NCBI RefSeq assembly: GCF_027532185.1
Contig: NZ_JAPZSV010000005.1
Coordinates: forward strand, 1-64,000
Length of the DNA: 64,000 nucleotides
Direction: 5' to 3'
From: Hylemonella sp.
Lineage (GTDB): Bacteria > Pseudomonadota > Gammaproteobacteria > Burkholderiales > Burkholderiaceae_C
Of this stretch, positions 7,421 to 7,555 are shown in pieces (within the stretch, counting starts at the first letter, position 1; each line of letters opens with the position of its first letter). A program made the translations under genes and the position numbers. Below the pieces are notes generated by a model. The model did not search any database. It was not told where the DNA came from and saw only the letters and a list, made by a program, of their open reading frames with translations.

Positions 7421-7449
7421 AAAAAAAACCCCGGCCAAAAGCCGGGGTT
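7421..7449 (-). terminator. Intrinsic terminator of the candidate sRNA
   Basis: On the minus strand a 9-bp GC-rich stem (7,441-7,449 with 7,427-7,435) with a 5-nt loop is followed by U8 (A8 at 7,421-7,428 on the plus strand, two of which pair in the stem). No protein-coding gene on that strand ends here, so it must end a non-coding transcript. It lies about 110 bp before hemJ. Confidence 0.85.
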
Positions 7450-7524
7450 GCAAGCCTTTTTTGCTGTCACACATCAAGGCCCCGCTCAGGGAGGAAAAGC
7501 GGGGGGTGGCAAGCCACCCGGGAT
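7421..7524 (-). ncRNA. Candidate small RNA with anti-Shine-Dalgarno-like loop
   Basis: The 334-bp gap between hemJ and hemB contains a complete small transcription unit on the minus strand. A promoter (7,527-7,555) precedes about 104 nt that end in a strong terminator. The predicted RNA has hairpin 1 (7,504-7,509 with 7,514-7,519, 6 bp, loop CUUG), hairpin 2 (7,480-7,485 with 7,499-7,504, 6 bp, 13-nt loop UUUUCCUCCCUGA) and the terminator hairpin. Hairpins 1 and 2 share one base, so they would breathe slightly. The loop of hairpin 2 contains UCCUCCC, complementary to ribosome-binding sites, as in CU-rich-loop regulatory RNAs. It is not 6S, 4.5S or tmRNA by length or sequence. Targets are unknown. 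Confidence 0.65.
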
Positions 7525-7526
7525 GT

Positions 7527-7555
7527 AATCTAACAAAAAGGTCAGCCGATTGCAA
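7527..7555 (-). promoter_or_regulatory. sigma70 promoter of the candidate sRNA
   Basis: On the minus strand TTGCAA (7,550-7,555) and TAGATT (7,527-7,532) are spaced by exactly 17 bp. Transcription should start near 7,520-7,524, just before the first hairpin. The -35 is part of a 9-mer TTGCAAGCC that recurs at 7,448-7,456 on the plus strand. Confidence 0.65.

Follow-up and report, generated by a model that had tools for sequence, protein, structure and literature searches.

Small RNAs (sRNAs) of the anti-hemB family (Rfam RF02837) have, in the papers that could be searched, a name but no function. The member found in B. cenocepacia, ncS04, is a 105-nt RNA whose 3' end was determined by RACE and dRNA-seq and whose expression was confirmed by Northern blot; according to the passages available, it changed significantly in none of seven conditions, which did not include envelope stressors, and Hfq binding is reported for it from reference 17 of the same paper (PMC5688073). 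In B. pseudomallei, anti-hemB is among the known RNAs listed in the retrieved part of PMC3521395. The 104-RNA survey of 2010, considered as the origin of the family, does not contain the word hemB in its retrieved text (PMC2864571), the "anti-hemB" in the retrieved passage of PMC6515984 is an antibody and not the RNA, and the accessible passages of PMC10987360 and PMC10175445 make no mention of anti-hemB. Two further systems are described in excerpts of the corresponding papers. sX13, an sRNA of the polA locus in Xanthomonas, targets G-rich motifs in start regions with its C-rich loops, and the paper raises the question of whether sRNAs are also encoded at other polA loci (PMC3771888). ErsA is strictly sigma22-dependent and acts as an envelope-stress sRNA on the algC and oprD mRNAs (PMC5819304, PMC7565897).

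The DNA studied here is a 64-kb stretch (the window, always meaning the whole stretch), of which the sRNA gene is a small part on the minus strand. Comparative evidence supports the limits, promoter, helices, family membership and conserved loop of a predicted complete sRNA gene (promoter, helices and terminator) at minus-strand positions 7555–7421, between hemB and a hemJ-like gene. Its features and its neighbors are the following:

7550–7555, minus strand: -35 box TTGCAA of a sigma70-like promoter, at a position fixed among relatives
7527–7532, minus strand: -10 box TAGATT, 17-nt spacer to the -35 box; relatives mostly TAAATT
7421–7520, minus strand: predicted sRNA transcript of the anti-hemB family, about 100 nt (RF02837, 61.8 bits at 7421–7505)
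7504–7519, minus strand: hairpin 1, GGGUGG-CUUG-CCACCC, outside the Rfam match
7481–7503, minus strand: hairpin 2, CCCGC ... GCGGG, from the covariation alignment
7486–7498, minus strand: hairpin 2 loop UUUUCCUCCCUGA, complementary to Shine-Dalgarno sequences
7454–7480, minus strand: hairpin 3 (weak), GCCUU/AAGGC around the conserved GAUGUGUGACAGC, from fold and alignment
7421–7449, minus strand: intrinsic terminator, stem (7449–7429) and U8, from an independent terminator scan
6884–7312, minus strand: flanking hemJ-like gene (UPF0093; Pfam PF03653, 137 bits)
7647–8648, plus strand: hemB, divergent from the sRNA (Pfam PF00490, 467 bits; NF006762)

The match to RF02837 (Rfam release 15) covers the full model (1–81) with a score above the gathering cut-off of 49.5 bits (E 5.1e-12) and is the sole gathering-level match within the 64 kb. 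The sequence and location traits of the family are present, namely a hairpin with the UCCUCCCUGA loop, a second hairpin, a U-run terminator and a position beside hemB. By its sequence, the window sRNA is a member of this already catalogued family and, being a well-conserved member of a known one, it is ordinary as a discovery; what the alignments add is a covarying 5' hairpin missing from the RF02837 model. A model built from relatives, with this sequence among the builders (R1), scores 118.8 bits at 7420–7524. The own genome holds a single copy of anti-hemB. Membership in other families was also considered: the Betaproteobacteria toxic sRNAs RF02278 (21.0 bits, cut-off 50) and ncS025 RF02869 (27.4 bits, cut-off 46) remained below their thresholds, and Spot 42 (RF00021) was not listed for positions 7200–7750 at E values up to 10.

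The promoter TTGCAA-17-TAGATT agrees with the sigma70 consensus at 8 of 12 positions and, at that score, is not listed by a consensus promoter scan with a threshold of 9. We compared the upstream regions of 36 of the 37 aligned Comamonadaceae-type sequences (L101 was left out, its upstream region being too short): in 35 of the 36, with the window counted, the top-scoring site shares one -10 position, 28–29 nt before the hairpin 2 core, with a spacing of 16–18 nt (nearly always 17), scores of 7–10 out of 12 and mostly the form TTG...-17-TAAATT. The 5' end at 7520 is an estimate, placed 7 nt past the -10 box, while the predicted 3' end, 7421, is the last U of the U8 run. The segment 7522–7421 folds with an MFE of -49.3 kcal/mol (z -3.39), and none of 200 shuffles was as stable.

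The helices are supported by the 37-sequence alignment, where 97.3% of the cells pair and 10 of 22 pairs are changed on both sides; pairing falls to 41–60% when the partners are slid. The covariation score is 0.269 against 0.150 in shuffles, with none of 500 shuffles as high, and four of five covariation measures beat all 500, the fifth (number of pair types) being reached by 74 of them. Hairpin 1 has six pairs, four of them changed on both sides, and hairpin 2 has five, one with a compensatory change; both are paired in 100% of the cells. In the terminator, four of the seven counted pairs vary on both sides. Hairpin 2 is nearly invariant in stem and loop, as expected of a constrained interaction site, and every family sequence (31 of 31) and order sequence (30 of 30) carries the loop motif CCUCCCUGAG, as do 12 of 18 class sequences, in a set that was picked by a model containing the motif. 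Hairpin 3 is paired in 94.6% of the cells with one of four pairs changed on both sides, the window's row being misaligned by one base, and its pairing to the RF02837 consensus is poor. Its loop GAUGUGUGACAGC (7475–7463) is near-invariant in most of the 37 Comamonadaceae-type sequences and, by eye, absent from the order loci L032–L061; it is a possible second pairing site. The terminator loops of these order homologues, judged by eye, often carry a second C-rich element, CUCCCCUUU, which the window lacks.

Most of this anatomy had been read from the letters of the window alone. The promoter, the CUUG tetraloop of hairpin 1, the U8 terminator and the complementarity of the hairpin 2 loop to Shine-Dalgarno sequences are all borne out by the results above. 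The description as about 104 nt with two hairpins agrees to within a few nucleotides with the estimated length and is right for hairpins 1 and 2, and had missed the third, weaker hairpin at 7480–7454. The gap had been said to have no ORF on the minus strand, which is incorrect, since one frame is open from 7648 across the gap into hemJ; the conservation of the gap is nevertheless of RNA type. Homologous gaps without conserved stems or promoter would have spoken against the gene, and in the gaps compared both stems and the promoter were found conserved. The proposal of an independent sRNA gene with a conserved loop holds.

We call the window's own family Comamonadaceae-type; its nearest named records include Curvibacter, Hydrogenophaga, Variovorax and Rhodoferax. 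RF02837 scores above cut-off in 117 of 150 genomes of this family; the order sample has 164 such genomes out of 250 and the class sample 14 out of 274. At E ≤ 0.001 it is matched in 124 of the 274 class genomes and in 3 of 14 control genomes, none of the latter above cut-off. The locus sets compared below comprise the loci with the highest scores (30 from the family, 30 from the order and 18 from the class, six of the class loci lying below cut-off), and the family counts out of 31 include the window. The sRNA core was also found within 800 nt upstream of hemJ in 58 of 80 named hemJ loci; since these 58 were picked by a core-motif search, the identity of their loops is by construction. The other 22 have no core in the 800 nt examined, with only 180 nt available for L157 and the RNA of L124 lying farther off. 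A second sample, L161–199, was chosen from the matches for other families and multiple copies: the core-motif search yielded 36 copies, four of them from the window's family, in 35 of 39 regions, with no copy in L168, L169, L175 and L199 and the second copies in L161 and L163 unmatched. Several genomes carry two to six copies (for example L004, L166, L065, L068, L078; G087, G563, G654), some in tandem about 150–220 nt apart, and some of the tandem ones score below the Rfam cut-off. A c-di-GMP-I riboswitch lies near one class-level homologue (L072:2037–2121).

The explanation that we hold, as a whole, to be probable is an independently transcribed, probably Hfq-assisted, trans-acting anti-hemB sRNA, for which we infer pairing with G-rich ribosome-binding sites and a sigmaE ancestry. 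A stable hairpin would present UUUUCCUCCCUGA, of which UUUUCCUCCC is the proposed contact with mRNA start regions, and pairing with the G-rich ribosome-binding sites of several mRNAs would block initiation; hairpin 1 would protect the 5' end, and the terminator with its U8 run would be the Hfq site. To judge from relatives, the ancestral gene would have been fired by sigmaE and would therefore have served envelope-stress repression, while in the window's lineage the sigma70-type promoter would give a roughly constitutive supply. In this mechanism, hemB would be a neighbor and not a target. The mechanism that we infer as the best is that the C-rich loop masks ribosome-binding sites. Computed pairing energies of the loop are -21.1 kcal/mol for the perfect complement, -7.9 for GGAGG alone, -12.7 for the hemB start region and -4.8 for that of hemJ.

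The pattern AGGGAGGA-N2-9-ATG has six matches in the own genome, of which three resemble real starts by eye and precede a signal-peptide protein, a panE-like gene and an outer-membrane-barrel-like protein. At the panE-like start (window 63013–63031), AGGGAGGA is an 8-nt complement of the sRNA loop; at the outer-membrane-barrel-like start (G000:C13:84094–84109, L205), AGGGAGGAAA is a 10-nt one. Few ATG starts are preceded by 10 nt complementary to the loop: there are 23 matches in 25 family genomes, four of them the sRNA's own antisense, against 248 matches for a control Shine-Dalgarno pattern. Envelope enrichment of the matched genes over strong-Shine-Dalgarno controls was not clear: a hydrophobic segment at the N-terminus occurs in 8 of the 15 test products and 16 of the 29 controls, and a hydrophobic stretch of 19 residues at any position in 9 of the 15 and 13 of the 29. 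These comparisons use ORFs of at least 80 aa only (15 of 25 test loci, 3 from the own genome and 22 new, and 29 of 30 control loci), and the 30 control loci stand for the 248 control matches. The UCUCC version of the search in 25 Burkholderiales genomes of other families yielded 22 matches, of which two are the same site, with no gene recurring among products of at least 60 aa. The real targets may use looser pairing, GTG starts, coding regions or the second conserved loop.

The CCUCC core of the loop, and the fact that no specific target family recurs, would also suit a general translation brake, in which the loop mimics the 3' end of the 16S rRNA and masks all strong Shine-Dalgarno sites, as the growth-inhibiting RF02278 sRNAs might do. 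We regard this as unlikely: in all 61 family and order loci the conserved stretch is the longer CCUCCCUGAG and not CCUCC alone, even if these were chosen with a model that contains the motif, and RF02278 itself reaches only 21 bits for a cut-off of 50.

The flanking genes bear on the question of whether the sRNA acts in trans. A -10-like TACACT (7324–7319) ends six nt before the ATG of hemJ, which is thus probably leaderless; a box of this kind, TA[AC]A[CAT]T (TAAACT/TACACT-type), lies 4–9 nt before the hemJ start in 66 of 80 loci (L080–L159), a Shine-Dalgarno-like core in only 3 of 80. Likewise, hemB has a -10-like CACAAT (7634–7639) seven nt before its ATG and may be leaderless: when the box is defined more loosely and the starts are set by homology, 55 of 105 loci carry it, and a Shine-Dalgarno-like core is present in 15 of 105. 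The hemJ-like protein itself scores 106 bits with TIGR00701, below the equivalog cut-off of 138. With both genes leaderless-looking, the sRNA is probably neither a leader of hemJ nor an antisense RNA to the hemB mRNA. In addition, both hemB and hemJ are missing from the 3-kb locus of 8 of 31 family copies. On these two grounds trans action is the best reading, as the sequence-only reading had proposed; its view of the regulator as near-undescribed was mistaken, RF02837 being catalogued and expressed in B. cenocepacia as ncS04 (PMC5688073, in the passages retrieved).

The name of the family would suggest a regulator of hemB alone, as an antisense RNA or through the divergent promoter, and hemB is indeed the divergent gene upstream of the sRNA in 22 of the 31 family loci and 26 of the 30 order loci. 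We nevertheless consider this quite improbable. The sRNA is divergent from hemB, so that the two transcripts would not overlap provided that hemB is transcribed from its apparent leaderless promoter; homologues in the class sample lie beside polA in 9 of 18 loci and beside hemB in none; and the best pairing of the loop to the hemB start region falls well short of that of a perfect complement (-12.7 against -21.1 kcal/mol).

Conservation of the loop in the absence of identifiable targets, as well as the conserved second loop GAUGUGUGACAGC, could point to a sponge or decoy for another sRNA or for a protein, with no action on mRNAs. We find this very improbable, as we know of no such partner and a C-rich loop facing G-rich start regions is the mode demonstrated for sX13 (PMC3771888, as excerpted). 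The least probable reading, and one we can hardly credit, is a 5' leader or attenuator of hemJ, with transcription from 7520 ending at the terminator or reading into hemJ: the gene does lie downstream in the same orientation in 22 of the 31 family loci, but it likely has the leaderless promoter described above, the order sample has engB downstream on the opposite strand instead (25 of 30), and eight of the 31 family copies are free of both neighbors.

The preferred trans-acting sRNA has a further side, the control of its gene. The motif GGAACTT-N15-17-GTCNNA is found upstream of most sampled homologues outside the window's family, 50 of 62 at the order level and 13 of 18 at the class level, when scored on 11 positions with 9 or more counted as present. 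By sample, it occurs in 26 of the 30 best-scoring order loci, in the same 13 of 18 class loci and in none of 30 family loci; in the second sample, in 24 of 32 non-family and none of four family copies; and in none of the 58 named loci. The window's best score is 6 of 11, family loci reach at most 8, and the window sRNA thus lacks the sigmaE-type promoter of sigmaE-dependent sRNAs such as ErsA, RybB and MicA. A score of 9 arises by chance in 0.4–0.9% of same-locus background windows and in 1.2–1.7% of upstream shuffles. Among records named by title, it is present in two Cupriavidus and a Ralstonia (AGAACTT-15-ATCATA, score 9) and in a Herminiimonas (GAAACTT-15-GTCTCA, score 10), against none of eight from Variovorax, Ramlibacter, Hydrogenophaga, Acidovorax, Aquabacterium, Aquariibacter, Pseudorhodoferax and CD01, the last 0.2 bits below cut-off; a P. 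citrulli match (28.6 bits) was dropped from this comparison and the weak matches L301–L309 were left out. The motif is close to the sigmaE consensus, GGAACTTTT at -35 and GTCAAA at -10, given in a passage of PMC1804206; the meningococcal sigmaE -35 is quite different (PMC2893595, likewise in part).

A search for RpoE (TIGR02939) in 25 genomes gave 24 proteins above cut-off, with 20 non-family ones at 285–330 bits. In the five genomes of the window's family (G000, G003, G007, G091, G114), four score 247–261 bits and G007 has none above cut-off. With five family genomes, it is only suggestive that the divergence of RpoE and the loss of the promoter go together. The motif also lies within 300 nt upstream of rpoE in only 10 of 20 non-family and none of four family genomes, a count made with guessed starts and without a chance level, which lends weak support to its being the RpoE motif. 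Taken together, the promoter comparisons suggest that the family was once fired by sigmaE and that the window's lineage appears to be on a housekeeping-type promoter. In the open-licence literature (titles, abstract starts and passages), nothing joining anti-hemB and sigmaE was found.

As to the place of the gene, order loci have engB downstream on the opposite strand as stated, or upstream on the same strand (3 of 30). Class loci have polA upstream on the same strand as often as given above and engB downstream on the opposite strand in 10 of 18; in 4 of 18, all of the genes looked for are missing. The polA-flanked class homologues share the arrangement of E. coli polA-spf-yihA, while the window's copy is flanked by hemB and hemJ and not by polA and engB. 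R1, built from Comamonadaceae-type RNAs only, gives a full-length match that takes in hairpin 1 at each of the 18 class loci (best 27.8–44.7 bits), and finds no match at the E. coli spf (Spot 42) locus at E up to 1. The simplest history of the locus would run from polA-sRNA-engB through hemB-sRNA-engB to hemB-sRNA-hemJ.

The sigmaE-type promoter in relatives and the polA-engB place of distant homologues raise the possibility that anti-hemB descends, as its betaproteobacterial branch, from an old sRNA of envelope stress. We lean towards the joint reading in which this ancient sigmaE-controlled sRNA lay between polA and engB, the place of Spot 42, and possibly forms one family with ErsA and sX13; anti-hemB would have kept engB while hemB replaced polA, and the Comamonadaceae would then have lost engB and the sigmaE promoter, become sigma70-driven and gained the conserved second loop, with the RpoE of that lineage diverging. 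As far as the searched literature goes, the sigmaE-type promoter in relatives, its loss here and the link to polA-engB are not in print, and these three together make function testable. The promoter in most sampled Burkholderiales copies of other families predicts when the RNA is made and for what, namely envelope stress; the polA-engB chain connects anti-hemB to the locus of well-studied sRNAs; and the promoter switch would amount to a natural experiment in which the supply of the sRNA went from stress-induced to constitutive with the pairing loop unchanged.

Compared with known systems, the RF02278 group (double-hairpin RNAs, bdhR1, Bordetella S17) is likewise betaproteobacterial and places C/U-rich unpaired stretches over ribosome-binding sites, according to excerpts of PMC5688073 and PMC11722255. 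It differs from the window sRNA in place and sequence, as the 21.0 bits against 50 reflect. sX13 differs in having three C-rich loops, with CCCC/CCCCC, and it is reported to be Hfq-independent and restricted to Xanthomonadaceae. Spot 42 (spf) of E. coli has polA upstream on the same strand and engB/yihA downstream on the opposite one, as do about half of the class-level homologues, yet R1 has no match at its locus and the window's copy is not at polA. The gene of ErsA presumably adjoins polA. In P. aeruginosa, ErsA is under sigma22 (sigmaE-type) control, as predicted for the anti-hemB homologues of other families, whereas the window's promoter is not sigmaE-type; ErsA also differs in its length of 132 nt and in an effect on amrZ reported as Hfq-independent, and its likeness to the window sRNA is by description only. 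The closest system is RF02837 with ncS04: the window sRNA matches the whole Rfam model, with the hairpin 2 loop, hairpin 3 and terminator, and is similar in size to ncS04 (about 100 nt, 105 nt for ncS04). Set against them, with ncS04 compared by description, the window sRNA is distinguished by its covarying 5' hairpin, its sigma70-like promoter and hemJ downstream.
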